Below are positions 5,806 to 20,742 of a stretch of DNA of 36,155 nt, in pieces. The stretch's first letter is position 1. Each line of letters begins with the position of its first letter. The notes beneath the pieces were generated by a model. It worked only from the letters and a program-made list of their open reading frames with translations, did not search any database and had not been told where the DNA came from. The stretch is from Clostridia bacterium (GTDB taxonomy: Bacteria; Bacillota; Clostridia; Oscillospirales; Acutalibacteraceae): positions 1 through 36,155 of the forward strand of contig JAFYVE010000015.1 of assembly GCA_017549285.1 (NCBI GenBank), written 5' to 3'. Position numbers and translations under genes: made by a program.

Positions 5806-6030
5806 ATAAAAAATGCCCTATGAACAAATCAGGGTGAGAAAAATCCCACGGTACCACCTGAATTGTGCATAACGCACCACTCGTTTCTGTTTAACGCACA
5901 GCATACGTACTGCTCATCGCAGTCTTGCTCCGAGCCGGCACATCATCATTCCGATACAGCCTCACACCAACCGGCTGCTCTCTGAAAACTTCCTGATGAA
6001 TTCTGCTCTTCACAGCAATTCAAATATTAA
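5806..6030 (-). promoter_or_regulatory. Alanine-specific T-box leader of alaS
   Basis: On the minus strand the T-box core AGGTGGTACCGTGGG occupies 5845-5859; its TGGT can pair with the ACCA end of uncharged tRNA-Ala. Stem I is recognisable: TTGCT/AGCAA base, a kink-turn-like GTGAA/GG internal loop, GAGC/GCTC, then a specifier loop holding GCC (5937-5939) followed by G, and a distal GGTTGGTGTGAGGC segment. GCC is an alanine codon, which agrees with the gene. A short CCC-GGG hairpin and T-runs just before the alaS RBS (about 5804-5835) are the likely terminator. Uncharged tRNA-Ala should allow readthrough. Confidence 0.93.
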
Positions 6031-6113: not shown

Positions 6114-7370
6114 TTAAAATGTGTCAATTTTTGCCGATACCCTGAGGATTTTTCTTGCGTCCGATGCTGTGATTTTGTTGTCAGCGTTCACATCGGCTGC
6201 AGCAGTCTGTTCTTCATTGAAATGTTCAAGCTTTGCGGCAGCTCTGAGAGCAAGTCTTGCGTCTGATGCTGTGATTTTGCCGTCTTTGTTGATATCACCG
6301 ATTGTTACTGTTGCAGGAAGTGAAGGCACTTCTTCGTTGTCTTCGGAAGTATCGTCAGAAGTGAAGAAATTGACTGTATATGTGAGTGTTGTGTCCTGTC
6401 CTGATGCTGTTTTAAGACCTTTTACGGTTATTGTGTATTTCCCGTTATATTCATTGACAGCTTCGGGTCTGAAAATGATTGCATTGTTGACACCGTATCC
6501 CATTGTGCTGATGTTGAAATAACCGTCAGCTGATGATTTGCTGAAAGAATATGTTCCGTCTTCACTCTTCATTTCAATTGAAACACCTGAAATGTCAGGC
6601 GCACTGTATTTTGAAGGATTAAGCGAAATGTTCCATGCGTGTTCTGTTGTGAAAAGAGGGGCGTCGCTTACCATATAGCCTGAGGGAGGCCAGCTGATGA
6701 AATCGAAGTCGTCAGCTTTAGCTGATTTATCAAATGCGTAAAGCGAAGAATAGTATTTCTGACCGTTGTTTGCCGTGCCAAAACCTGTTGCACCCATTGT
6801 TGGGTTGAGGAGCCATCTTCTGTGTCCGAGTCTGTCAATATTTGTGGCATCACTGTCATTCATCCACATATCAACGGAAAAAGTGAGAGGACCTGATTCG
6901 GGCTGATTGCCGTAAAAGTAGGAAAGATTGCCGTAAGCAGCTCCTGTGTAGCCTTTATCGAACATTTCCTGACTCATTCCCGAAGGTTTAGAGGGAGCGT
7001 GTGAAAGCTTTTTGTTTGCAGCTGTTACCAGTGCTGCTGTCTGTGCAAAATCGGTGTATTCAGCCGAAATTGTCACATTTTTAAGACCTGCAAGTCTTCT
7101 GTATGCGTTGAGTCTGTCAAGACCTGCTTTTATTATATCGTCTTTTACTTTGCCCTGTGAATAAGGTAAAGCAACGGAAGGCTCATTGATATAGATGTTT
7201 TCGTTGTCACTTACGGGAGTGTTCTGAGAAAGTGAAACGATTTCCTGTTTTGTGAGCTTTTTCATTGATTTAAAGCCCGAGTAACCGTCTTCTGCAGATG
7301 ATGTGATTGCCGTGCAGGAAAAAACAATGATTGCAACAAGTAAAAATGAAATAATCTTTCTGATTTTCAT
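6114..7370 (-). CDS. Secreted CAP-domain protein with C-terminal type I dockerin
   Basis: A 418-residue exported protein. Residues 1-26 form a signal peptide (basic start, hydrophobic core, AITSSAE cleavage zone). A CAP/SCP-like domain covers roughly 75-220, with LNAYRRLAGL, LSHAPSKPSG and NIDRLGHRRWLLNP. A beta-rich region (220-345) follows, then an acidic linker. A dockerin at about 356-418 has two calcium-loop repeats, DINKDGKITASDAR and DVNADNKITASDAR. Dockerins bind cohesins on scaffoldins or the cell wall, so the protein may be held in a cellulosome-like assembly. CAP domains in bacteria are often wall- or matrix-associated; the precise activity is unknown. The RBS is AAGGAATG. Confidence 0.88.
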   Translation of the reverse strand: MKIRKIISFLLVAIIVFSCTAITSSAEDGYSGFKSMKKLTKQEIVSLSQNTPVSDNENIYINEPSVALPYSQGKVKDDIIKAGLDRLNAYRRLAGLKNVTISAEYTDFAQTAALVTAANKKLSHAPSKPSGMSQEMFDKGYTGAAYGNLSYFYGNQPESGPLTFSVDMWMNDSDATNIDRLGHRRWLLNPTMGATGFGTANNGQKYYSSLYAFDKSAKADDFDFISWPPSGYMVSDAPLFTTEHAWNISLNPSKYSAPDISGVSIEMKSEDGTYSFSKSSADGYFNISTMGYGVNNAIIFRPEAVNEYNGKYTITVKGLKTASGQDTTLTYTVNFFTSDDTSEDNEEVPSLPATVTIGDINKDGKITASDARLALRAAAKLEHFNEEQTAAADVNADNKITASDARKILRVSAKIDTF

Positions 7371-8065: not shown

Positions 8066-9631
8066 TTATGCGATAGGATCTGTTTTGTAAATGAACATAC
8101 AGCTTGTCTGCATATATTCGGGTGCAGAAGTGTAAATTCTGTAACCTGCATTAAGCCAGGACTGCATCTTTTTAATAAGAGTTTCAGCTTCTTCAGGTAA
8201 TTCGGTAATATCTGTTTCTCCAAGTGCTGAGCTGTTTGATGCCATTGTGTCAAGAGCTGCTGTGAGTGAATTCAGGTTGTCAGCTTCGGTCAGTTTTGTA
8301 AGAACATCAAGAAGTTCCTTGTTTTCGTTGAGATAAGTCATAAGTTCCGAAAGAGTTGCAAGTGTTTCGGGAAGCTTTTCCATTGATGCTGCAACTTCAG
8401 GATCTTCAAGTGCTGCAGAGAACTGATTAAGAAGAGGAGTTATTTCATCAAGGTCTTCCGAAATATCCATAAGTGAACCGAGAACACTCTTGAGTGCAGG
8501 AACATTTGACATAACGTTCATAAGTGACTGCATATCTTCGCCCTCAAGTTTTGTAATGAAGTTTGAGAGTGTTGTGATGTTTTCGGGAGTGAGAAGAGTT
8601 GTCATTGTTTCAAGCATCTTTTTGTTTTCGTTGTAGACCTTGAGACCCTTCTGCATTATATCAAGCATTTCCTTGATTTTATTTGTGTCTTTCATAAATT
8701 CTGCAACAACCTGATTTGGGTCAATCTGTGCAAGAAGATTGCTGACATTTTTCACTTCATTGAGAACATTTTTTGCATCTTCAAGAGTCTTGGGCATCGC
8801 AATATCCATATTGAGTGCTGAAAGAGGCATAGCTGCAAAATATGCGTCACCGAGAGTGAAGTCTGTAACGGTTGCTTTTATTGTGAATGTGCTGGGGAAT
8901 GAGAAATCTTCAAAACCTGAGATGTTGAGTTTGTCAAGCTGAAGGCTTTCATTGAGTCCGGGAGCACCCGTCATAACGATTGCTTCAAAACTGCCGCCGC
9001 CTACCGAAATGCAGTTTGTAACTTCAATGTTTGAGAAGTTTTCATAGGGAAGCATAAAACCGCCGACCATCGCAAGGGGAGCATACATCGTGTATTTTAC
9101 ACCGTCTGCTTCAATTTCCTGAACGATGTTGTTCTTCATTGTGATTTCCATTCTGAAGTTACCGCTTTTACCTTTAAGGTCTGCGGGAGTCATTTCCTGT
9201 TCATCAAGGAAGTATTTTATTGAAACATCTATGGGAAGCTGTTTGTCTGAAGCACCTTCATAATACACATCGGAAGTTGTCATATGCCAAGTGAGTTTGC
9301 CGTCTGCGCTTACGGAAGCTGCCTGACCTCTTGTAACAACAAAATCTTTGAGTGTTGTTGAGTCAACTACTTTTACTTCAGCTCTGTCAGCGTGTAACCA
9401 GTCTGAAACGGTGATTTTCTTAACAGAACCGTCACTGTTGAGGTTTACATAAACATTTTCATTTTTTGTAACAGTCTGTGTTGTGTCAGTGTAAGTTATG
9501 AGGGGGGCTGATGATTCATCACCCGTTGCAGGTTCTTCTCCAACAGGTGTCTTTGAACACGCTGTGAGCATCAGCATCAGGAGTGCAAGGCATAAAGCCG
9601 TTATTTTCTTTATTTTATTTATATTTTTCAT
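8066..9631 (-). CDS. Lipoprotein partner of the MMPL exporter
   Basis: A 521-residue lipoprotein (signal ending LMLTAC, cysteine 25). Residues 30-265 look beta-rich. The remainder to about 490 is a long series of helices with hydrophobic heptads (for example LNEVKNVSNLLAQID, LLNQFSAALEDPEVAASMEKL), reminiscent in style of the YhgE/Pip-type helical regions that accompany MMPL transporters. Its ATG overlaps the stop of the exporter gene as ATGA, so the two are translationally coupled and probably act together at the outer face of the membrane. I infer a periplasm-like adaptor or substrate-handling role; no catalytic motif is visible. No strong terminator follows. Confidence 0.8.
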   Translation of the reverse strand: MKNINKIKKITALCLALLMLMLTACSKTPVGEEPATGDESSAPLITYTDTTQTVTKNENVYVNLNSDGSVKKITVSDWLHADRAEVKVVDSTTLKDFVVTRGQAASVSADGKLTWHMTTSDVYYEGASDKQLPIDVSIKYFLDEQEMTPADLKGKSGNFRMEITMKNNIVQEIEADGVKYTMYAPLAMVGGFMLPYENFSNIEVTNCISVGGGSFEAIVMTGAPGLNESLQLDKLNISGFEDFSFPSTFTIKATVTDFTLGDAYFAAMPLSALNMDIAMPKTLEDAKNVLNEVKNVSNLLAQIDPNQVVAEFMKDTNKIKEMLDIMQKGLKVYNENKKMLETMTTLLTPENITTLSNFITKLEGEDMQSLMNVMSNVPALKSVLGSLMDISEDLDEITPLLNQFSAALEDPEVAASMEKLPETLATLSELMTYLNENKELLDVLTKLTEADNLNSLTAALDTMASNSSALGETDITELPEEAETLIKKMQSWLNAGYRIYTSAPEYMQTSCMFIYKTDPIA

Positions 9632-12090
9632 ACCTGTTCTTCATCTCCGTTATCAGAATTGTCTGACAAATCGATATCGTATTTGTCTGTAAGACCTTTT
9701 AATGAGTCGGAATAATCTGCTGTCTGACTTTCTGTATATATATTTCTTGCAGAGCCTGTTCTTGCAATCAGTCTGTTATCTTTACCCTTCTGTTTCTTCG
9801 GCATCTTTTTTGTTGCCGAGAACGGCTCGAGGGGATTGATGGGGTCCTGAATTTCTGAAATAACCGTTTCGTTCTCTTTTTCAACAGGAGTGGTGTTGTC
9901 AAAGAGTTTCGGCGCCGGTGTTATAACGGGCTCTTCGTGTTTTACCATCGGTATTTTTATAACGGGTACTGCCTTTACGGGCTCATCGTCTTCAGGTTCG
10001 GGAATTTCAACAACCTTCTTGGGTACACGCCATTTGTAGGTGGTTTTGTTGATAAAACCTTCCGTAACAACAAGAATGGGAGTAAGGAAAAGAATGATAA
10101 CAAGCGCACTGATGAGAGCACCTCTTGCAAGCATTGTACACATTGATGTAACAATGTCGATGTCACATACAAGACCTACACCGATTGTTGCTGCAAAGAA
10201 AACAAGAGAACTCTGGTAAATTGAACGGTGTGAAAGGTCTGCAGCGATTTTCATAGCCTGTTTCTTTTCAACACCCTTCTGTATCTCTTCTCTGAATCGT
10301 GTTGTCAGAAGAATTGCATAGTCAACCGTAGCACCCAGCTGAACACAGCTTATAACGGTGGGGGTGATGAAGCATATCTCTTCACCTGTGAGGAAAGATA
10401 TTGCAATGTTTATCCATATTGCAAGTTCAATTGAAAGAACAAGAATAAACGGAATTGATATTGATTTGAAAACAAGTGCTATAACAATGAATATTGCCGC
10501 AATTGAAATGATATTTGTAATAATGAAGTCCCTGTCTGTAACGGAGATAAGGTCCTTATACATAGGTGCTTCACCCGTTACATAACCTTCGGCATCATAC
10601 GTTTTCACAATCTTTGTCATCTCATCAATCAGAGCATTACATTCATCCGAAGCAGGGGAATATGCTGCATTTACCATCAACAGTTCTTTGCCTGCCGTGG
10701 AAAGCATTGATTTTACTGATTCGGGAAGAATATCAACAGAAAGTGTTGTGCCCATCATTGAACCCATATTGAGCACTGTCGTAACACCGTCAATCTGTGA
10801 AAGGCTGTCAGCAAGAGCAATTTTTTCTGTGTCGGGCAGGTCTGCGTCAACAAGCACAATGTTCATACTTGCCATATTGAAGTCTTCCTTGAGAATATCC
10901 ATGGCGGCGATGGATTCCATATCTTTAGGCATAGCATCCATCATATTGTAGTATTTTGCTACGTTGTTCTGACCGTACCAGGCAGGGAAAATCAGGATAA
11001 CAAAGACAATTGCAATAACTTTTCTGAGCTTGATTGTGACTTTATTGAGTCCGCCGAAAGGTGGAACAAGGCTCTTATGTCTTGTTTTGTTGATTGCGTT
11101 TTCAAAAACAAGAAGAAGAGCAGGGAGAATTGTTACAGTTGTGAAAATCCCGAAGATAACACCCTTTGCCATAACAATACCCATATCGAGACCGAGCGTA
11201 AAGCTCATGAAACACAATGCAATAAAACCGAAAACAGTTGTGACCGATGAACCTGCAAGAGATGCAAAAGTTTCAACAATAGCTTTTGACATTGCGGCTT
11301 CACGTGATCTGTATTTCGGCTTTTCTTCAATATATCTGTCCATAAGGAAGATTGAATAGTCCATTGTAACGCCTAGCTGAAGAATTGCTGCGATTGACTG
11401 GGTGATAAATGAAACCTGACCGAAAATGAAGTTTGTTCCCATGTTATAAAGGATTGAAATACCGAGAGCCATGAGCATAACTATGGGAAGTATGAATGAT
11501 TCCATTGTCATGCCGAGTGCGATAAGTGCAAGCCCTACGGCAATTGCAGCGAAAACGGGAACCTGCTCAAACATAAGCTGACTCATATCATATGTCATAG
11601 CGGCAGTACCGCTCATTACACAGTTTTCAGGAAGAATATCCTGAATTGCATCAATCGCATCAAGTGTTTTGTTTGATGACCCCGGTGAACTGAACTGCAC
11701 CATCATAAGTGTGCTGTCACCGTCTGCGCTGTAAAGCATTGATGTCATCCCTGACGGGAGCATTGAAAGAGGTATCGGTGATTCTGATACTGCACCTATC
11801 CACAGGACAGCTTTTACATTTTCAATCTCTTCAATGGAATTTTCAATTGTTTTGGCTTCGTCAAAAGTTAGATCGTCAAGGACAATAATTCCCATAGATG
11901 CCATATTGAAATCCTTATCAAGAATTGTAATGCCTTTAACGGAATCAAGTCCTTCAGGCAGATAAGATAAGATGTCATAATTGACAGGGGTAAAAATAAA
12001 ACCCAGTATTGACGGAATCAGAAGCAGAATCGCAATAAGGATAACTTTTTTAGTATTTTTTGTTATCCAGTGCGCCATAGAATTTATCAC
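9628..12090 (-). CDS. MMPL/RND-superfamily membrane exporter
   Basis: An 820-residue polytopic protein with about 12 membrane helices in two homologous halves. Each half has one N-terminal helix, a large external domain and a cluster of helices. The duplication shows directly: DKDFNMASMGIIVLDD near residue 53 and KEDFNMASMNIVLVDA in the second half, and the GVTMDYSIFLMDRY and GATVDYAILLTTRF segments. Aspartates in those helices are the expected proton-relay positions. Family members export lipids, peptides or antimicrobials by proton motive force; the substrate is unknown here. A charged cytoplasmic tail of about 130 residues is unusual. GTG 12090 is preferred because GAGGAG lies ten bases upstream. 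Confidence 0.92.
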   Translation of the reverse strand: MINSMAHWITKNTKKVILIAILLLIPSILGFIFTPVNYDILSYLPEGLDSVKGITILDKDFNMASMGIIVLDDLTFDEAKTIENSIEEIENVKAVLWIGAVSESPIPLSMLPSGMTSMLYSADGDSTLMMVQFSSPGSSNKTLDAIDAIQDILPENCVMSGTAAMTYDMSQLMFEQVPVFAAIAVGLALIALGMTMESFILPIVMLMALGISILYNMGTNFIFGQVSFITQSIAAILQLGVTMDYSIFLMDRYIEEKPKYRSREAAMSKAIVETFASLAGSSVTTVFGFIALCFMSFTLGLDMGIVMAKGVIFGIFTTVTILPALLLVFENAINKTRHKSLVPPFGGLNKVTIKLRKVIAIVFVILIFPAWYGQNNVAKYYNMMDAMPKDMESIAAMDILKEDFNMASMNIVLVDADLPDTEKIALADSLSQIDGVTTVLNMGSMMGTTLSVDILPESVKSMLSTAGKELLMVNAAYSPASDECNALIDEMTKIVKTYDAEGYVTGEAPMYKDLISVTDRDFIITNIISIAAIFIVIALVFKSISIPFILVLSIELAIWINIAISFLTGEEICFITPTVISCVQLGATVDYAILLTTRFREEIQKGVEKKQAMKIAADLSHRSIYQSSLVFFAATIGVGLVCDIDIVTSMCTMLARGALISALVIILFLTPILVVTEGFINKTTYKWRVPKKVVEIPEPEDDEPVKAVPVIKIPMVKHEEPVITPAPKLFDNTTPVEKENETVISEIQDPINPLEPFSATKKMPKKQKGKDNRLIARTGSARNIYTESQTADYSDSLKGLTDKYDIDLSDNSDNGDEEQV

Positions 12091-12203
12091 TTATCTGTCA
12101 CTCCTCATTTTTAACCATATTATTCGATTATGTACATTATTGCATTTAAAAATCAACTCAGTATTAACAAACTATATATTTTTTTAATATTTTTATAAAA
12201 ATA

Positions 12204-12240
12204 AAGCGTCCGCATACATCTGCAGGCGCTTATTGTACAT
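12204..12240 (-). terminator. Orphan terminator-like hairpin in the 12.09-12.38 kb gap
   Basis: An 11-base stem with one wobble and one mismatch (12204-12214 with 12221-12231) is followed on the minus strand by an AT-rich tail. No minus-strand gene ends here, so it may insulate the divergent MMPL and phage-cassette promoters. The rest of this 293-base gap holds the divergent promoters and LexA-like operators. Confidence 0.45.
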
Positions 12241-12276
12241 TTACAGGGACTCAAAAATTTAATTCAGATGAACGTA

Positions 12277-12305
12277 TTGACAATACAAACAAATGTTCAT
12301 ATACT
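12277..12305 (+). promoter_or_regulatory. Promoter of the phage-derived cassette
   Basis: TTGACA (12277-12282), a 17-base spacer and TATACT (12300-12305) form a near-consensus sigma-A promoter. It is the only strong promoter seen for the 13-gene plus-strand cluster, and it is overlapped by two LexA-like operators. Confidence 0.82.
12286..12299 (+). promoter_or_regulatory. LexA/DinR-like operator 1
   Basis: AAAC-AAAT-GTTC lies between the -35 and -10. It differs in one core base from the Firmicute SOS box GAAC-N4-GTTC. A repressor bound here would block polymerase. Confidence 0.5.
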
Positions 12306-12314
12306 TAAACATGC

Positions 12315-12328
12315 AGAACAAACGTTCT
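12315..12328 (+). promoter_or_regulatory. LexA/DinR-like operator 2
   Basis: AGAACAAACGTTCT contains an intact GAAC-N4-GTTC core and fits the Bacillus pattern CGAACRNRYGTTYC at every internal position. It lies just downstream of the predicted start site, 29 bases from operator 1. Confidence 0.68.
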
Positions 12329-12383
12329 GAAATGTTGGTGTATATTCGGAAATGCTCTTCCCCGGAATGCACAAAAAGGAGCG

Positions 12384-12800
12384 ATGAAAAAATTGAAGTG
12401 CGTGTCATACTACGGTACGATAACTATGGCTGACATGGGAAAGGATGATGAGTTGAGCTGTACGGAAAACGATTGTGCCGGATGTCTTTATCAGGCAGCC
12501 AGACTTTCCTTATATGATGTTCTGAACGCTGTAATCAACAACGAACTTTCGGAAACCGAAAAAAGAATAATTGAACTTCATTGGTTCGGGAATATGTCCG
12601 TAAAAAGTATTGCGGCAGCTTCGGGATTATCGCTTGCAGGCATAAGAAAATCCCTGAACAGAGCCCATAAAAAAATTGAAGCAATTCTTAAATACATAGT
12701 GCTTTATAATGAGATGCTTGACGGCAGTAAATCGGTACCCCGTGTTCAGGATATAAAAATTTCAATAGTGAAAAACGGAAAGGAGTTCAGCACGGTATGA
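12384..12800 (+). CDS. Sigma-70 region 4-like regulator (phage type)
   Basis: A 138-residue protein whose middle (about 55-100) reads LSETEKRIIELHWFGNMSVKSIAAASGLSLAGIRKSLNRAHKKIE in short segments, the pattern of a sigma region 4 helix-turn-helix. There is no region 2, so it is not a full sigma factor; it could direct late transcription or act as an activator, as small sigma-4-like proteins do in clostridial phages. A cysteine cluster (C-x4-C-x2-C, near residue 29) precedes it. The start is uncertain: AAGGAG ends only two bases before ATG 12384, whereas TTG 12393 has 11-base spacing. The next gene overlaps as ATGA. Confidence 0.75.
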   Translation: MKKLKCVSYYGTITMADMGKDDELSCTENDCAGCLYQAARLSLYDVLNAVINNELSETEKRIIELHWFGNMSVKSIAAASGLSLAGIRKSLNRAHKKIEAILKYIVLYNEMLDGSKSVPRVQDIKISIVKNGKEFSTV

Positions 12801-13036
12801 AAACTCTTATTGAACTTGCAGAAGAATATGAAAACTCAATCAGGAATATTGAGGAAATTGTCAGAAAAACAAGAACAGCTATGAAGGAAGCAGGGAAGAT
12901 ACATAACTTCGACGAAGTTAAAAAACTCGGAGCAAAACTTGCTGTTCTCTATGAAGAAATCCGTGATATGCGTATAGTTTCTCAGAAACTAAGAACTTAT
13001 TACGATGAAGAAACATTATTTCAGGAGGCAATATGA
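12797..13036 (+). CDS. Small coiled-coil protein in phage cassette
   Basis: A 79-residue, almost wholly helical and highly charged protein (LAEEYENSIRNIEEIVRKT, LGAKLAVLYEEIRDMRIVSQKL). It is not recognisable as a named family. It overlaps its neighbours by four bases on both sides, so it is translated as part of the same unit. Small coiled coils of this kind occur among tail-tip assembly proteins, but that role is inferred from position alone. Confidence 0.65.
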   Translation: MKTLIELAEEYENSIRNIEEIVRKTRTAMKEAGKIHNFDEVKKLGAKLAVLYEEIRDMRIVSQKLRTYYDEETLFQEAI

Positions 13037-13359
13037 TTATTAACAGATTGATTGTTCCCGAGGGGAACAAACTGGAGTTCAATGTTGAACACCACGAAAA
13101 CGATAAACTTTATGAACTTGCAGAGGGTGAACTTTATTATATCAAGATTTCAGATTCCGTTGACCCGTTTACACTCAGAGCATATATTCTGAGTCAGAAC
13201 AGTCATTTCAGCTTTCCTCTTACAATTGAAGAAGGTGAGTATGTTTTTGAAATAGGAATACTTGATGAAAGACAGGATAGTCGAATTATTCTTCCCGCAC
13301 TTGATGAAAGACACCGTCCTCTTAATCAGTTGCTTATTCTCAGGAGGCTTGAATACTGA
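13033..13359 (+). CDS. Beta-rich small protein, possible baseplate/fibre component
   Basis: A 108-residue protein predicted to be mainly beta strands (KLEFNVEHHENDKLYELAEGELYYIKISD, then FSFPLTIEEGEYVFEIGIL). It has no signal peptide. The pattern of a ligand-free beta sandwich followed by a linker fits small fibre-attachment or baseplate-upper proteins, but I cannot name a family. The start codon overlaps the previous stop (ATGA), and a GGAGG-type site is present (13024-13028). Its stop codon shares a base with the next start. Confidence 0.6.
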   Translation: MIINRLIVPEGNKLEFNVEHHENDKLYELAEGELYYIKISDSVDPFTLRAYILSQNSHFSFPLTIEEGEYVFEIGILDERQDSRIILPALDERHRPLNQLLILRRLEY

Positions 13360-13613
13360 TGGAATGTAAAACCGTAAAAGCTGAAATAAAATCCCCCGTC
13401 GTGAATGCATTCACATTTCCCGAAGGCCCCAGAGGAATCGGCATAAAAGAAATCAGACGGATAAATAACGTTATGATCATCACTTTTGATGATGACAGAC
13501 AGCAGGTTCTTGAAATGCCCGACTGGTGGTTCGGTACAAGGACTGAATATAACAATCTGTCTGAATCTCAGAAGTATGAAAAAGAAATCTATTTTATTGA
13601 GGAGGGGACATAA
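13359..13613 (+). CDS. Phage tail-fibre-like small protein
   Basis: An 84-residue protein. FPEGPRGIGIKEI resembles the short collagen-like Gly-Pro-x-Gly stretch that precedes receptor-binding domains in phage fibres. The C-terminal WFGTRTEYNNLSESQK and EIYFIEEGT follow the common phage fibre pattern GTxxEYxxL...IYFIxE. It is likely a segment of a tail fibre or upper baseplate protein that exists here as a separate small gene. It starts one base into the preceding stop codon and shares its last base with the next start, so coupling is tight. Confidence 0.7.
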   Translation: MECKTVKAEIKSPVVNAFTFPEGPRGIGIKEIRRINNVMIITFDDDRQQVLEMPDWWFGTRTEYNNLSESQKYEKEIYFIEEGT

Positions 13614-13762
13614 TGTTTCTGCGTGAAGGAAAAGAATATTATCCCCTGGAAATATCTCAGATTTACGGCAGGGGAGAAAAGAAAATTTATAACCGTGATG
13701 AAAGAAAAAAAGCATATATCTATATTGCGGTTGAAAATACTGAAAACAAAGGAGAAGAATAA
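13613..13762 (+). CDS. 49-residue basic small protein
   Basis: This short frame (ATG 13613 to TAA 13760-13762) encodes MFLREGKEYYPLEISQIYG and ends ENTENKGEE. A very strong GAGGAGGGG site lies directly upstream. Its ATG overlaps the preceding TAA and its TAA overlaps the next ATG, so it fills the gap between two genes exactly and is very probably real. The product is charged, tyrosine-rich and soluble, with no motif that I recognise. Confidence 0.75.
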   Translation: MFLREGKEYYPLEISQIYGRGEKKIYNRDERKKAYIYIAVENTENKGEE

Positions 13763-14466
13763 TGGCAAATTATATAAATATCACGCTTGATACTATCGCA
13801 CCGTCAGGTGTGAGTATTCTTGTCAACGGTGATGCGGATAAAGTGACATCAACAGCAGCCGTTCTTTCAATTGGCTGTACCGATGAATCAACTGATGGTT
13901 ATCAGATGAAAATCTGGGGCACAGCAGATGCACCGACAGAAGCTGATGCAATATGGGAAACATACAGAACATCAAAGAATGTAACACTCGCTTCGGGTGA
14001 CGGTCTTAAAACCGTTTATGTGAAAGTTCGTGATGATGTATGGAATGAATCTTCAGCAGTAAGTGATTCTGTCACGCTTTATGAAAAAGTTCCCGCAATC
14101 AGCAGTTTTTCGGTTGGTAATTCAAGGATTTCTCTGACATCCGGAAAGGATTGCGCTGTAGGTGCATTTTATGCAGATGAAAAAATCAACGCCGCAAAGC
14201 TTATGATTGTCCAGAATGTCAACGCACCTCACGATTCACCTTCAAATATTGCAATTCCTACAACAAACGGGTCTGATATTCACGATGACAATTATTCTGT
14301 ATCAGCGTCAGACGCTGTTCTTGAATTCAACGGTGAGGTTGACAGTGTTATCGGAATCAATTACACAATACGTGCCGCCGATATTGTTGCTGTTGCACCC
14401 GGTGACGGAATAAAAATTATCAAGGCTTTTGTAAGAAGTGCCGCAACGGGCAGTTGGAGTGTCTGA
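13762..14466 (+). CDS. Ig-like domain phage fibre/adhesin protein
   Basis: A 234-residue protein with an N-terminal Ig-like unit. LDTIAPSGVSILVNGDADKVTS opens it, followed by STDGYQMKIWGTAD, then GDGLKTVYVKVRDDVWNESS near residues 78-100. This is the well-known TAPSG...DGxKTVYVKVRDxxGN pattern of bacterial Ig-like repeats in tail or surface proteins. The second half (about 110-234) is also beta-rich and may be a second domain. No signal peptide is present, which argues for a structural phage-type protein rather than a secreted adhesin. GGAGAAG precedes the start. Confidence 0.75.
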   Translation: MANYINITLDTIAPSGVSILVNGDADKVTSTAAVLSIGCTDESTDGYQMKIWGTADAPTEADAIWETYRTSKNVTLASGDGLKTVYVKVRDDVWNESSAVSDSVTLYEKVPAISSFSVGNSRISLTSGKDCAVGAFYADEKINAAKLMIVQNVNAPHDSPSNIAIPTTNGSDIHDDNYSVSASDAVLEFNGEVDSVIGINYTIRAADIVAVAPGDGIKIIKAFVRSAATGSWSV

Positions 14467-14467
14467 T

Positions 14468-14923
14468 GTGATTGATATTACGATTGACAGAAACAGAATA
14501 AGCTCTTTTTTTAAAGCTGAAATAAATGTCACATCTGATGTGCCGTTCACTTCAATTGAAGCCAGAGCCACAAAAACAGGTTCAGCTTTCGGCAGAAGAA
14601 CGGGAATCTGTCTTCTCAGGGATGATGTAACCTTGTCAGACGGCGTTGTCAATCTTCCGTCTGCAGTAAATGAATATTCTTTTGATGCCGAATGTGCTGA
14701 AATTCAGACAGACGGTGAATACAGAATAAGTGTTTTTGTGCTGACTGAAGACGGCAAATGGAATGACGGCTCCGTTTTTCTTTCTTTATCAGGTGAAACC
14801 GTTGTTGATTCGGACGGTGCTTTGATTTTTGTGAAAAGAGACGGAAGCGGTACCGATGAAACATACAGAAGTGCTTATTCGGGTAATGATTATAACAGTT
14901 TTATTTCGGAGGTGCTTTTATGA
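14468..14923 (+). CDS. Beta-rich putative fibre protein
   Basis: A 151-residue protein with alternating strand patterns (SSFFKAEINVTSDVPFTSIEAR, DGEYRISVFVLTEDGKWND). The second half contains another Ig-like hairpin similar to the preceding gene's DGxKTVYVKVRDDxWN, so the two probably derive from one multi-domain fibre. GTG 14468 is chosen as start because GGAG (14456-14459) lies eight bases upstream and the previous gene stops at 14466; the in-frame ATG at 14438 would lie inside that gene. It overlaps the next gene by ATGA. Confidence 0.7.
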   Translation: MIDITIDRNRISSFFKAEINVTSDVPFTSIEARATKTGSAFGRRTGICLLRDDVTLSDGVVNLPSAVNEYSFDAECAEIQTDGEYRISVFVLTEDGKWNDGSVFLSLSGETVVDSDGALIFVKRDGSGTDETYRSAYSGNDYNSFISEVLL

Positions 14924-15369
14924 GTGAATATTATCTCGGATATACGGGTGCACAACTTGATGATGCCGTGAATAAGGTCAGAAACGGCTTTATAAACCCG
15001 AAAGATCTGATAATTCATTGTAAGGAAACTGCATCAGGTACTTTTCAGGGAAGCGGGCAGACGTGTGACAAGCTTTCACTCGGTCTTACTTTCAGAGCAA
15101 AAGTGATTCTTATTATTGCCACAACACCGATTACAACAACAAACGCTGCCTCACCCTATGAAATATGCTCAATTCTCAGAGTGTATGACAATGATTTTTC
15201 AGGGCTTAAAAACGGTTGTGTCTTTGTCTATAAGTCGAGCAGTAATGTAAAAACAGGTTTTTCAACAAGTAACGGGGTCAGCAGTAATTCTGATAACACA
15301 ATAACAGGCTGGGGATCATCCACAAAATTTGCATCGGGTGTGACTTATGCCTGGTATGCGTGGGGGTAA
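14920..15369 (+). CDS. Phage tail fibre/tip-like protein
   Basis: A 149-residue protein. The N-terminal YYLGYTGAQLDDAVNKVRNG is the common phage pattern YTGxxIDxAVxKV found at the start of fibre and distal tail proteins. The rest is a serine/threonine/glycine-rich beta domain ending SGVTYAWYAWG, typical of a receptor-binding or carbohydrate-binding tip whose last strand ends in glycine. It probably forms the variable host-contact domain if the cassette makes a particle. Strong coupling (ATGA) with the upstream gene supports one unit. Confidence 0.75.
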   Translation: MSEYYLGYTGAQLDDAVNKVRNGFINPKDLIIHCKETASGTFQGSGQTCDKLSLGLTFRAKVILIIATTPITTTNAASPYEICSILRVYDNDFSGLKNGCVFVYKSSSNVKTGFSTSNGVSSNSDNTITGWGSSTKFASGVTYAWYAWG

Positions 15370-15372
15370 AAA

Positions 15373-15627
15373 ATGTTTTATTATAAATTTATTGATAAAG
15401 ACGGCAATGTGACTTATCAGGCTCACAACAAAGCTGTTGAACGTGAAGAAATGCTTGAAATAACAGAAACTGAATATAACACAGTTGCCGAAGAGCTCAG
15501 AAAAAAAGCCGAAAGCGAAATGCAGAAGGAAGAGCTCTCAAAGGACGCTTACATAAGAGAGCTTGAAAATGAAAACGCTGCATTACTTTACAGGATTCTC
15601 ACGGGGGAGGAATTAACCGATGCTTAA
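15373..15627 (+). CDS. XkdW-like/coiled-coil phage protein
   Basis: An 84-residue protein. The N-terminal YYKFIDKDGNVTYQAHNKAV forms a small beta hairpin, followed by ITETEYNTVAEEL and a helical coiled coil ending ENAALLYRILTGEELTDA. Small proteins with this architecture commonly sit between the last fibre gene and xkdX in Gram-positive prophages; in PBSX the same slot holds xkdW. The similarity is positional and architectural, not proven. The gene starts four bases after the previous stop, preceded by a G-rich site. Confidence 0.65.
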   Translation: MFYYKFIDKDGNVTYQAHNKAVEREEMLEITETEYNTVAEELRKKAESEMQKEELSKDAYIRELENENAALLYRILTGEELTDA

Positions 15628-15745
15628 CAAAATAATATATTACTATATGCTTGGAATCTATAAAGAAAAGCATATGAAAAAACTGCTTGATGCAGGTGCT
15701 ATGACTCGTGAGGAATACGAAGTCATTGTTAACGGAGGTGTTTGA
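15620..15745 (+). CDS. XkdX-like 41-residue phage protein
   Basis: A short frame of 41 codons starting at ATG 15620 after GGGGGAGG. The product reads KIIYYYMLGIYKEKHMKKL then DAGAMTREEYEVI. This matches the XkdX pattern: a Y-rich start, GxY, a helix, a G, then T-x-E-E-Y-x-x-I. In PBSX-type prophages xkdX directly precedes the lysis genes, exactly as here. Its start overlaps the end of the preceding gene and its stop is two bases before the endolysin start. Confidence 0.78.
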   Translation: MLNKIIYYYMLGIYKEKHMKKLLDAGAMTREEYEVIVNGGV

Positions 15746-15747
15746 AT

Positions 15748-16527
15748 TTGAGTAAAAAAATCCTTTCAGAGGGAATTGATGTTTCATATGCTCAGGGCAG
15801 AATTGACTGGGCAAAACTTAAAGGAAAAATCGGTTTCGCAATTATACGTTGCGGTTTCGGAGGTGATTTCACCAATCAGGATGATTCTCAGTGGCTCAAT
15901 AACGTAAATGGTTGCATAGAAAACGGCATTCCTTTCGGTGTGTATCTTTACAGCTATGCAACAACACCTGAAAAAGCAAGAAGTGAAGCCGAACACGTGT
16001 TAAGACTCATAAAAAATATTGATTTTGACCTGCCTGTATTTCTTGATCTTGAGGAAGAGCAGATAAGAAGACTCGGCAAGGAAAGAATTCTTGAAATTGC
16101 AAAGACTTTCTGCTATTACATCGAAAAAGAGGGCTATACATACGGTACTTATTCAAACAAGAACTGGTTCACAAATTACCTTACCGATGAGTGGTACGAT
16201 AATAAGGTCAAATGGCTTGCCCAGTATTACAAAGAGGTCACATATAAGGGGACATATGATATCTGGCAGTATACAAGTACGGCAAGAATTGAAGGCATAA
16301 ACGGTAATGTTGACTTCAACAGAGGTTATATTTCTTTCGTCAGAGGTGATGCTGACGGGGACGGAAAAATCACAGCTGCAGATGCAAGAAAAATTCTCAG
16401 AGCATCGGCAGGGCTTGAAAATCTTCAGGGACAGACTCTTGCAAACGCAGATGCTGACGGTGACGGAAAAATAACCGCCGCAGATGCGAGAAAAGTCCTT
16501 CGTGAGTCTGCAGGACTCTCTGACTGA
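15748..16527 (+). CDS. GH25 lysozyme (endolysin) with C-terminal dockerin
   Basis: A 259-residue muramidase that cleaves the MurNAc-GlcNAc bond. GH25 hallmarks are GIDVSYAQG (9-17), the catalytic DxE pair in VFLDLEEE (D100 and E102) and DIWQYTSTARIEGINGNVD near the domain end. Residues 200-257 are a type I dockerin with two near-identical repeats, ADGDGKITAADARKILR and ADGDGKITAADARKVLR. There is no signal peptide, so a holin must release it. TTG 15748 is chosen because GGAGG (15734-15738) is nine bases away; the TTG at 15742 is too close. A dockerin replaces the usual wall-binding repeats. Confidence 0.93.
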   Translation: MSKKILSEGIDVSYAQGRIDWAKLKGKIGFAIIRCGFGGDFTNQDDSQWLNNVNGCIENGIPFGVYLYSYATTPEKARSEAEHVLRLIKNIDFDLPVFLDLEEEQIRRLGKERILEIAKTFCYYIEKEGYTYGTYSNKNWFTNYLTDEWYDNKVKWLAQYYKEVTYKGTYDIWQYTSTARIEGINGNVDFNRGYISFVRGDADGDGKITAADARKILRASAGLENLQGQTLANADADGDGKITAADARKVLRESAGLSD

Positions 16528-16528
16528 A

Positions 16529-16798
16529 ATGAACGAAAAGGAAGTCTGGGAAAGACTTACCTCAGCGGAATCAAGCATAAAATCGGCACATCATCGGCTT
16601 GATTCCGTTGAAAAACTCACTCAGTCGGTGTCCGATATGGTCGTTGAAGTGAAGCACATGAGGGAAGACCTGAACAATGTGCGGCAGGAGCTTGACGAAG
16701 TGCGTAACCGTCCCACGGCTTTTTATGAAAAACTCATGTGGCTTGTAATCGGTGCCTGTGTTTCGGGTGCTGTATCGGCAATATTTGCTTTTATTTAG
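16529..16798 (+). CDS. XhlA-like membrane protein
   Basis: An 89-residue protein. Residues 1-62 form an amphipathic coiled coil (VWERLTSAESSIKSAHHRLDSVEKLTQ, then EVKHMREDLNNVRQELDEVR), and residues 66-88 form one membrane helix (KLMWLVIGACVSGAVSAIFAFI). This is the architecture of XhlA/haemolysin-type proteins that assist holins in PBSX. ATG 16529 is preferred because the upstream frame overlaps the lysozyme gene. No clear RBS is present, so translation is probably coupled to the endolysin stop two bases before. A four-base TAGG overlap region leads straight into the holin RBS. Confidence 0.8.
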   Translation: MNEKEVWERLTSAESSIKSAHHRLDSVEKLTQSVSDMVVEVKHMREDLNNVRQELDEVRNRPTAFYEKLMWLVIGACVSGAVSAIFAFI

Positions 16799-16806
16799 GA
16801 GGAAAA

Positions 16807-17052
16807 ATGGAAATTCTTACATACGTAACGGAGCATGCATTAGTGCTTATTCCCGTTCTGATTATCATCGGGCAGATTATGAAAAATCTTGAATTTATTC
16901 CCGATAAGTTCATTCCGCTGATTCTGTTGCCTTTCGGAATCGTGGGTGCTATGGCTCTCGGCGGCTGGACAGTACCGTCTGCAATTCAGGGCGTCCTTGT
17001 AACGGGCACGGCAGTTTACGGGAATCAGATTGTAAAACAACTTAAACAATAA
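16807..17052 (+). CDS. Phage holin, Hol44/superfamily V-like
   Basis: An 81-residue protein with two to three hydrophobic segments: HALVLIPVLIIIGQIMK (10-26), FIPLILLPFGIVGAMALGGW (35-55) and a C-terminal VLVTGTAVYGNQIVKQ. The length, the I/V-rich first helix and the EFIPDKFIPLIL turn match small phage holins. A perfect AGGAGG (16797-16802) precedes the start. It would form membrane pores that let the signal-less GH25 enzyme reach the wall. It is the last gene of the cassette and is followed directly by a hairpin-rich repeat. Confidence 0.85.
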   Translation: MEILTYVTEHALVLIPVLIIIGQIMKNLEFIPDKFIPLILLPFGIVGAMALGGWTVPSAIQGVLVTGTAVYGNQIVKQLKQ

Positions 17053-17351
17053 TTTGTTGAGGTCCTCAGATAAACATTTCGTAATAAAAACAATCTTTGT
17101 AGGGACCGATGCCTATATCGGTCCGTTGTTTCATCAGAGATGAAACGGGGAACCCCCGGCGAGGGTTCCCCACGCAAAAACAGTCACACCGGACTGTTTT
17201 TGCTCCCTTCCTGCGCTTTTTAAGGAAAAAGAGTTTCGCACTCTGCTTCAGTGCGACAAAGGGCTTTGCCCTTTTGAATCCCACGAGCTTTTGTAAAAGC
17301 TCGACCAAAACTTTTATATTTTTTTATCCCGACAAATTCTGATTTATCAAA
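17053..17351. repeat. Hairpin-mosaic intergenic repeat, copy A
   Basis: No gene is credible here. Seven perfect hairpins stand in series from 17103 to 17302, with stems of 8, 8, 9, 12, 6, 7 and 8 bases (first: GGACCGAT/ATCGGTCC; fourth: GCAAAAACAGTC/GACTGTTTTTGC). The right end, about 17327-17346, is the exact 20-base inverse of the left end of copy C (35954-35973). The opening module GTAGGGACCGATGCC (17099) also recurs at 35987. Copies of this type behave like non-coding mobile or structured elements. The short frames across it are reading-frame noise. Confidence 0.8.
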
Positions 17352-17386
17352 CAAAAAAAGGAGCTGTTCATCTGAACGGCTCCTTG
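17352..17386 (-). terminator. metK terminator
   Basis: AAGGAGC (17358-17364) pairs with GCTCCTT (17379-17385), the stem being extended by GTTCA/TGAAC. On the minus strand seven T follow directly. It lies 13 bases beyond the metK stop. Confidence 0.88.
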
Positions 17387-17398
17387 ATTTTTATTCAA

Positions 17399-18580
17399 TT
17401 ACTTTACAGCTTCGAGAAGGGCATCAACTTTGTCTGTATGCTCCCAGGGGAGGTCGATATCTGTTCTGCCCATATGACCGTAAGCAGCTGTCTGGCTGTA
17501 GATAGGTCTTCTGAGGTCGAGAGTATCGATAATTGCAGCGGGACGAAGGTCGAATACCTTGTTTACAGCTTCTGCAAGCTTTTCGTTTGAAACCTTGCCT
17601 GTACCGTATGTATTGACCATAACTGATACGGGACGTGCAACACCGATTGCGTATGCAAGCTCGATTTCGCACTTCTTTGCAAGACCTGCTGCAACGATGT
17701 TCTTTGCAACGTATCTTGCAGCGTAAGCTGCACTTCTGTCAACCTTTGTGGGGTCCTTACCTGAGAAAGCACCGCCGCCGTGTGCAGCATATCCGCCGTA
17801 TGTATCAACGATAATCTTTCTGCCTGTAAGACCGCTGTCACCGACGGGGCCGCCGATAACGAATCTGCCTGTGGGGTTGATGAAAATCTTTGTGTTTTCG
17901 TCAATGAGTTCAGCGGGGATAACGGGATTGATAACGTTTTCGATAAGGTCTTTTCTTATCTGTTCCTGAGTTGCTTCTTCCTTGTGCTGAGTTGAAATAA
18001 CAACTGCTTCAATTCTTACAACCTTGTCGTCATCATATTCAACAGTAACCTGAGTCTTACCGTCGGGACGGAGATACTTAAGTGTGCCGTTCTTTCTGAC
18101 TTCTGTAAGTCTTAAAGCAAGCTTATGAGCAAGAGAAATGGGCATAGGCATAAGTTCTTCTGTTTCGTCACAAGCGAAACCGAACATCATACCCTGGTCA
18201 CCTGCACCGTGAAGGTTGTACTTGTCGTCGTCGCCTTCTTTCATTTCAAGTGACTTACTGACACCCATGCTGATGTCGGGTGACTGCTTGTCAAGTGTTG
18301 TGAAAACAGCACAAGCGTTGCCGTCGAAACCTGCTTCGGGTGAATCGAAACCGATGTCGCAGATTGTTTTTCTGATGATTGCAGGGATGTCAACAACAGC
18401 TTCTGTTGTGATTTCACCCATAACCATTGCCATACCTGTTGTGCAGCAGCTTTCACAAGCTACTCGTGAATATTTGTCCTGAGCAAGAAGAGCATCAAGG
18501 ACAGCGTCTGAAATCTTGTCACAGACTTTATCGGGATGTCCTTCAGTAACTGATTCTGAAGTAAAAAGTCTTTTTGCCAT
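17399..18580 (-). CDS. metK: S-adenosylmethionine synthetase
   Basis: A 393-residue enzyme of normal length making SAM from methionine and ATP. Recognisable motifs are the N-terminal [21 protein letters not shown], the [12 protein letters not shown] signature near residue 118, the [21 protein letters not shown] stretch and the [20 protein letters not shown] segment with its catalytic lysine. The start has a GGAGG site eight bases upstream. It is transcribed alone: a SAM-I riboswitch lies upstream and a strong terminator follows. High SAM should therefore stop its own synthesis. Confidence 0.98.
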
Positions 18581-18655: not shown

Positions 18656-18661
18656 TTAAGC

Positions 18662-18752
18662 CTTATCTCTCGGTCAGACCGTCGGATTTAGCACCTTGCT
18701 TATGCAGGTTGCCGGACATCACAGGGCCGTTCCCTCCGTCACTCTTTATAAG
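18662..18752 (-). promoter_or_regulatory. SAM-I riboswitch (S box) of metK
   Basis: On the minus strand the aptamer runs from CTTATAAAGAG through GGAGGGA, CGGCCCTGTGATGTCCGGCAAC split over the P2/P3 arms, AGGTGCTAAATCC and finally GAGAGATAAGG. These are the conserved S-box blocks in the correct order. The P1 stem pairs 18662-18671 with 18742-18752. A terminator follows, so SAM binding should switch metK off. Confidence 0.96.
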
Positions 18753-18771
18753 GAATATTCAATTCTTTATT

Positions 18772-20596: not shown

Positions 20597-20615
20597 AAAG
20601 ACAAACGATATGTTT

Positions 20616-20724
20616 TCTTCTTTCATCCGGACTATAACCGTCGGTAACGGAATTTCACCGTTTCGGCACCAATAGGTGTTAGCAGACTTTACTGCCGGTG
20701 GGGAATCACACCCCGCCCTGAAGA
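20616..20724 (-). promoter_or_regulatory. FMN riboswitch (RFN element)
   Basis: On the minus strand all RFN blocks occur in order: CTTCAGGGCGGGGTG, ATTCCCCACCGGC, AGTAAAG, AGCCTGCTAA-type segment (TCTGCTAACACC), GGTGCCGA, GGTGAAATTCCG, ACCGACGGTTATAGTCCGGATG and AAGAAG. Binding of FMN should favour the adjacent terminator and reduce ribU expression. Confidence 0.96.
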
Positions 20725-20742
20725 TATTTTCTTTACAGTTTT

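Follow-up and report, generated by a model that had tools for sequence, protein, structure and literature searches.

A set of thirteen intact phage-type genes for regulation, fibres and lysis lies beside a transporter gene in a Clostridia bacterium; to what does it belong? The stretch analysed here (the window; JAFYVE010000015.1) is the complete 36,155-base contig C10 of a genome of 2.3 Mb in 56 contigs that is 88% complete (G000), and the gene set, hereafter the cassette, occupies 12277-17052. We propose that the cassette is probably operon II (regulator, fibre and lysis genes) of a two-locus, vertically inherited system resembling a gene transfer agent (GTA), and that it belongs with a head operon on another contig. 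The proposal is based on the LexA-type boxes in the cassette promoter, the regulator gene g1, the fibre-family and lysis genes, and the separate, single-copy head operon. Transfer of DNA by the resulting particles is a part of the proposal that we hold less firmly. Features looked for in a GTA are found here: conserved, single-copy structural genes; capsid, portal and terminase encoded in the genome; and a separate operon for fibre or receptor-binding and lysis functions. Comparisons were made across 11 genomes of the genus, including G000, and 398 genomes of the family from 135 genera. Eight genomes (G000 and seven congeners) carry the cassette, and a minimal form in G008 is counted separately.

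A head operon on a separate contig

A search of the genome for terminase genes led to an operon on contig G000:C52 in which terS, terL, a portal gene, members of phrog_16951 and phrog_4588, the major capsid gene and three connector-like genes (named by position) are followed by host genes. Profile matches identify terL (phrog_2, E = 4e-44), the portal (phrog_30703, E = 4e-120) and the major capsid protein (phrog_3922, E = 6e-106). The cassette had been described in a first-pass annotation as self-contained, a view overturned by this conserved operon for capsid, portal and terminase elsewhere in G000. Every one of the 11 genus genomes has one copy of the capsid gene, which also occurs in 229 of the 398 family genomes, spread over 82 of the 135 genera; by our reading, 226 of these 229 genomes have a single copy. 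A YdbC gene, recognised by eye, adjoins the head operon in seven of the eight cassette carriers, the exception being G003. Loss of the head operon from G008, considered when no strong terL match appeared, was dropped because its capsid gene is present.

The head operon of G000 contains no recognisable baseplate genes. Baseplate_J was found in only one of the 11 genus genomes (G001) and not in G000, tail tube and tape-measure families not having been searched genome-wide. Loci from other genera have baseplate genes behind the capsid gene (L322 by profile; L321 and L323-L325 by eye), and an IMG/VR contig, L254, encodes a tail sheath as well. Pfam and PHROGs recognised no replication or integration genes among the 13 cassette and nine head genes, several of which had no match of any kind.

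Capsid relatives are encoded in 337 IMG/VR stretches, and among the 80 of these that were listed many contigs are 10-14 kb long. The entry L199 (MT835508.1, 'Bacteriophage sp.') appears by eye to be a piece of bacterial chromosome, with Rnf-like and ribosomal protein genes, that holds a head operon.

Organisation of the cassette

The cassette and its immediate surroundings contain the following features (window coordinates, strand).

9628..12090, -: MMPL transporter, divergent and a constant neighbour of the cassette
12277..12305, +: sigma-70-type promoter, TTGACA-17-TATACT, 11/12 consensus match
12287..12298, +: LexA-type box 1, AAACAAATGTTC, between -35 and -10
12316..12327, +: LexA-type box 2, GAACAAACGTTC, just downstream of -10
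12384..12800, +: g1, sigma-70 region-4 regulator (Pfam, above cut-off)
12797..13036, +: g2, protein of about 80 amino acids, partner of g1 in many genera (locus comparisons)
13033..13359, +: g3, small protein resembling BppU (by eye only)
13359..13613, +: g4, small fibre-connector-like protein with WWFGTR..EYN..L (by eye)
13613..13762, +: g5, 49-amino-acid protein
13762..14466, +: g6, tail-fibre-region protein (phrog_10898, E = 1.7e-50)
14438..14923, +: g7, shorter relative of g6 (phrog_10898, weaker, E = 8.5e-4)
14920..15369, +: g8, putative receptor-binding protein, fibre-like by eye, with constant N-terminus and variable middle
15373..15627, +: g9, small protein, no profile match
15620..15745, +: g10, XkdX-like, under the Pfam and NCBIfam cut-offs
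15742..16527, +: g11, GH25 muramidase (E = 2.5e-24) with C-terminal type I dockerin (E = 3.9e-9)
16484..16798, +: g12, XhlA-like membrane protein (phrog_937 'hemolysin', E = 4.1e-8; Pfam XhlA, only E = 0.024)
16807..17052, +: g13, holin of superfamily V (Phage_holin_5_2, E = 6.1e-18)
17103..17124, +: terminator-like hairpin

The 13 plus-strand open reading frames (ORFs) cover 99.8% of 12384-17052, and their junctions range from a 44-nucleotide overlap to an 8-nucleotide gap when the longest starts are taken for g7 and g12; g1 begins at ATG 12384 or at a codon further downstream. ORFs, junctions and open frames thus confirm the intact, tightly packed 13-gene operon of the first-pass annotation. 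The strong promoter that it placed here is near consensus and the top match of the region, ranking first among 19 sigma-70-like matches in 12000-17450 (13.9 expected from shuffles), and nine congeneric promoters have a similar architecture by eye. The sigma-4-like regulator, GH25 endolysin and holin that it named are upheld by profiles, the dockerin of g11 having been overlooked. Other labels survive in part: g10 is XkdX-like below cut-off while the 'XkdW' call for g9 has no profile support; g12 is XhlA-like by its PHROGs match and weakly by Pfam; and among the fibre-like proteins g6 is backed by a profile and g7 less so, the labels of g3, g4 and g8 being assigned by eye. Genes g2 to g5 are without a convincing profile match (none below E = 0.2 for g3), and PDB profiles gave no credible relative for g3, g6 or the capsid protein among 9, 25 and 7 rows, respectively.

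A hairpin-rich intergenic stretch lies at 17025-17177 of the window, and a similar antisense reading frame at G000:C48 (L106) may mark a dispersed repeat. Elsewhere, the window contains a T-box leader (5827-6022), an S-adenosylmethionine riboswitch before metK (18660-18754), a flavin mononucleotide riboswitch (20611-20729) and, at 6114-7370, a gene for a CAP-domain protein whose type I dockerin (E = 1.2e-10) resembles that of g11.

LexA-type boxes at the cassette promoter

The cassette promoter is predicted to be of LexA/SOS type, sharing its box with the lexA promoter. We take the box type to be the Firmicutes LexA consensus. A box with at most one change is present in eight of nine cassette promoters, seven of which have two boxes; those of G001 are imperfect by eye. 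Of the eight canonical lexA genes of carriers, seven have a box upstream that departs from the pattern at no more than one position, and the eighth (G008) has one with two changes; in G000 itself lexA is preceded by the same box type as the cassette. No box was found at lexA of G010, and the lexA match of G001 is partial and stands outside the lexA promoter count. Of 30 g1 loci across the family, 19 are preceded by a box, including 16 of the 26 from other genera, compared with 41 of 1244 control windows. A single perfect box also turns up in 40 of 100 shuffles of an equally long window. Because a single box is not rare and the consensus is not enriched (see below), the case for SOS control is built on where the boxes lie, on their pairing and conservation, and on the boxes at lexA.

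The same type of box occurs elsewhere in G000, at L108 (C51), L105 (C39), L110 (C9) and L107 (C13), where by eye it precedes a SLOG/RadC-like operon and mobile-element-like genes.

The g1-g2 pair and a candidate link between the operons

The presence of g1 was compared with that of the capsid gene using, for each of 134 genera other than that of the window, the genome listed first. A g1-like gene (E <= 1e-8) is found in 31 of 76 genera with capsid and in 1 of 58 without (Fisher, 1.9e-8); the counts are 18/76 and 1/58 at 1e-10, and 48/76 and 11/58 at 1e-6. The sole capsid-negative genome with g1, G095, has two congeners with capsid (G207 and G280). A g2-like gene lies directly behind g1 in 22 of 30 g1 loci family-wide. 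About 3 kb behind its capsid gene, G207 has a g2-g1 pair in which g2 was recognised by eye, and in the phage-like region G007:C7 (L182, L183) a g1 homologue lies shortly before the terminase genes terS and terL. By assignments made mostly by eye, the pair precedes fibre and lysis genes at L331, L333 and L335, precedes a lysin only at L330 and stands alone at L332, L334 and L339; at L338, g1 heads an operon of lysin, XhlA and holin. Since the partners of g1-g2 vary among loci, the pair seems to be the recurring core, with fibres and lysins exchangeable. At L329, L339 and L340 the pair is reversed (g2-g1) beside a divergent XRE-type regulator, two of these loci also having an ImmA-like gene (by eye).

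Upstream of terS, all eight carriers have an element similar to TGTGAACWTTTTGTAAACAAA, recognised in six by pattern (at most two mismatches), in G005 by eye and in G001 by weight matrix. G000 has one exact site and 12 sites with two mismatches; no tail gene was seen by eye at those 12, which removed them as candidates for a tail locus carrying the element. A family-wide element was also rejected, the 14 loci outside the genus scoring -10.4 to 7.1 versus 23.1-32.0 for the sites from which the matrix was built, with four of the 14 reaching an uncorrected p < 0.05. Among seven elements scanned, only that of G003 is overlapped by a LexA-type box, and a relay through g1 is therefore the simplest guess.

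Conservation and inheritance of the cassette

The cassette appears to be an ancient, vertically inherited host operon, because the MMPL locus is shared, the frames are open, selection is purifying and the trees largely follow the host. In all seven other carriers the cassette lies divergent beside the same MMPL gene with the same gene order and 26-98% protein identity, while the far flank varies between species; the conserved neighbourhood that the first-pass annotation had proposed as a check is thus found on the MMPL side and not on the other. Genes g1 to g6 and the holin are present in all eight carriers; g7 to g10 were not seen in G001, and g9, g10 or g12 went undetected in some carriers. 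Searches placed g6 in nine of 40 genomes (G000, seven congeners and one from another genus) and g4 in eight of the 11 genus genomes, G000 included. The trees of cassette, head operon and host have, pairwise, four of five splits in common.

Two further checks from that annotation count against decay. No stops interrupt the g4 and g6 frames in the genomes carrying them, and the ratio of non-synonymous to synonymous substitution (dN/dS) points to purifying selection in the ten measurable cassette genes. Between G007 and G009, the pair trusted since dS for G000-G004 is near or beyond saturation, the ratio is 0.11-0.24 for g1 to g7, 0.08-0.11 for g11 to g13 and 0.13 for MMPL; for g8 and g9 the divergence is too great for a ratio to be obtained, which fits a receptor-binding region, and the comparison did not include g10.

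All eight carriers and G008 have a dockerin-bearing lysin; Pfam identifies the dockerin in the window, G005, G006 and G008, and for the remaining five it is covered by the lysin alignment. In G006 an amidase replaces GH25 and the dockerin is retained, and in another genus G069 has an NlpC/P60 lysin with dockerin. The phage-like region G007:C7 also encodes an amidase-dockerin, so dockerin lysins are a phage trait in these hosts too, and the idea that they arise only on domestication is ruled out. The minimal form in G008, at the same locus, consists only of g1, GH25-dockerin, an 89-amino-acid protein and the holin.

A phage-like contig of 8.8 kb in G004 (L018, G004:C65) encodes a 2109-amino-acid protein followed by homologues of g3 to g8, including one of the C-terminal part of g4. 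It is likely related to the element that donated the fibre module.

Alternative explanations

Could the cassette be a decaying or helper-dependent prophage remnant or satellite? Its phage-type genes and the terminase-bearing phage-like regions of the genus are compatible with this, but the locus is fixed across species, a conservation that already contradicts such a reading; with frames open, dN/dS low and neither integrase nor terminase identified among the cassette genes, we consider it scarcely tenable. The satellite suggested by the first-pass annotation is further opposed by the head operon in the same genome. Nor is the cassette the end of a prophage on the window contig, judging from its 23 other ORFs of at least 150 amino acids, which are host-type or unmatched and among which Pfam found no phage structural family. 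The annotation was correct in this respect, and adjoining head and tail genes, as in a contiguous PBSX-type remnant, were not found on the contig. Its 'domesticated unit for controlled lysis or release' was partly right, agreeing with the fixed locus, open frames, purifying selection and SOS-type promoter.

A holin-endolysin system for secretion or altruistic lysis (type 10 secretion-like), in which SOS-induced lysis frees enzymes or fibres with no particle, is unlikely. It would account for the fibre-free operons of regulator, lysin and holin in G008 and G122 and for the lysin dockerin in G008 and the window; however, both G008 and G122 retain a capsid gene, g3 to g6 are under purifying selection and g1 co-occurs with capsid. 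Very unlikely, in our view, is a fibre-plus-lysin bacteriocin or superinfection-exclusion locus derived from phage receptor-binding genes and independent of the head operon. The variation of g8 does resemble that of a receptor-binding protein, and g3 to g8 have homologues on the phage-like contig of G004, but outside the genus g1 goes with g2, often with lysis genes, rather than with these fibres. A defence system was rejected as well, the 10 of 13 cassette proteins scanned matching no defence family.

Several observations weigh against a GTA-like operon II under SOS control. G008 has capsid, g1, lysin and holin with no g4 or g6 match, and G010 and G002, whose MMPL sequences are the most divergent, carry capsid with no cassette at the MMPL locus. 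No terS element could be recognised in G002, which has no cassette, or in the 14 loci from other genera. Matches to the loose LexA consensus show no enrichment in G000 (92, versus 241 for the reversed control). G005 and G006 are placed differently in the cassette and host trees, with high support in both (cassette split 97, host split 100). Finally, the g1-capsid test ignores relatedness, and for 38 of the 58 genomes scored as capsid-negative that status was deduced from the unlisted remainder of the capsid survey.

Proposed mechanism

In the GTA-like system that we favour, DNA damage would inactivate LexA and allow transcription of operon II. The g1 product, perhaps with that of g2, would then activate operon I through the conserved element upstream of terS. 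Capsids would fill with host DNA and receive the fibres encoded by g3 to g8, any tail being very short or absent, and would leave the cell by way of the holin and the dockerin-tagged lysin.

We regard as evenly balanced a broader version in which a family-wide Clostridia lineage carries an ancient, dispersed GTA. Here SOS would act via LexA on the g1-g2 activator and through it on an unlinked capsid operon, fibres and lysins would be swapped modularly, and hosts with dockerins would tether the lysin to cellulosome-type scaffolds; damaged cells would release packaged chromosomal DNA to kin in tail-less, fibre-decorated capsids. If so, a domesticated capsid has been retained in over half of the sampled genera of the family (82/135), some of which also have an activator under SOS control, and DNA damage, including that caused by antibiotics, would release packaged host DNA. 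Regulation becomes testable through LexA, g1 and the terS element, and chromosomal GTA loci may have been filed as viruses in virus databases.

Comparison with known systems

We know of few GTAs outside the Alphaproteobacteria. PBSX of Bacillus subtilis is a defective phage that packages host DNA, is inducible by DNA damage and has a positive regulator and the late gene order XkdX-XhlA-holin; unlike those of the split loci described here, its genes lie together in a single locus, and its tail is contractile. The region G007:C7 resembles the cassette in its g1 homologue near terS and terL, its amidase-dockerin lysin and an XhlA 66% identical to g12. It differs in its fibres and in forming one contiguous region, in which genes resembling those for tape measure and other tail parts can be seen by eye.

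Dispersed loci, a dedicated activator pair and a LexA-like repressor are also features of the Caulobacter GTA, in which a main cluster and distal loci are co-activated by the GafYZ pair under RogA (PMC9632790). It differs in that RogA is without key LexA-type cleavage residues, no holin or endolysin homologues were found and the phylum is unrelated (PMC9632790). In-silico LexA sites are reported for the Dinoroseobacter GTA cluster (PMC6473078).

Closest in layout is FpGTA of Faecalibacterium, described as having a head operon I and a separate operon II for baseplate, fibre, receptor binding, holin and endolysin, with 40 nm capsids that package 8.4-8.9 kb of host DNA (Borodovich et al. 2026, PMC12946183). 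Both systems comprise two unlinked operons, one for head and packaging and one for fibre or receptor-binding proteins, holin and endolysin, in Gram-positive anaerobes. The likeness is one of described layout; for FpGTA, particles have been shown. Operon I of the genus differs in ending after the connector-like genes, with no baseplate J in G000, and operon II of the window in being headed by g1-g2 under LexA-type boxes and in having a dockerin lysin. The main text of PMC12946183 says generally that GTAs are likely SOS-inducible and does not contain the words LexA or dockerin. Searches of the open literature returned no report of LexA boxes, a g1-g2 pair or dockerin lysins in an FpGTA-like system. 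New relative to FpGTA are the putative SOS boxes, the recurring g1-g2 pair, the dockerin-fused lysins and the family-wide spread.

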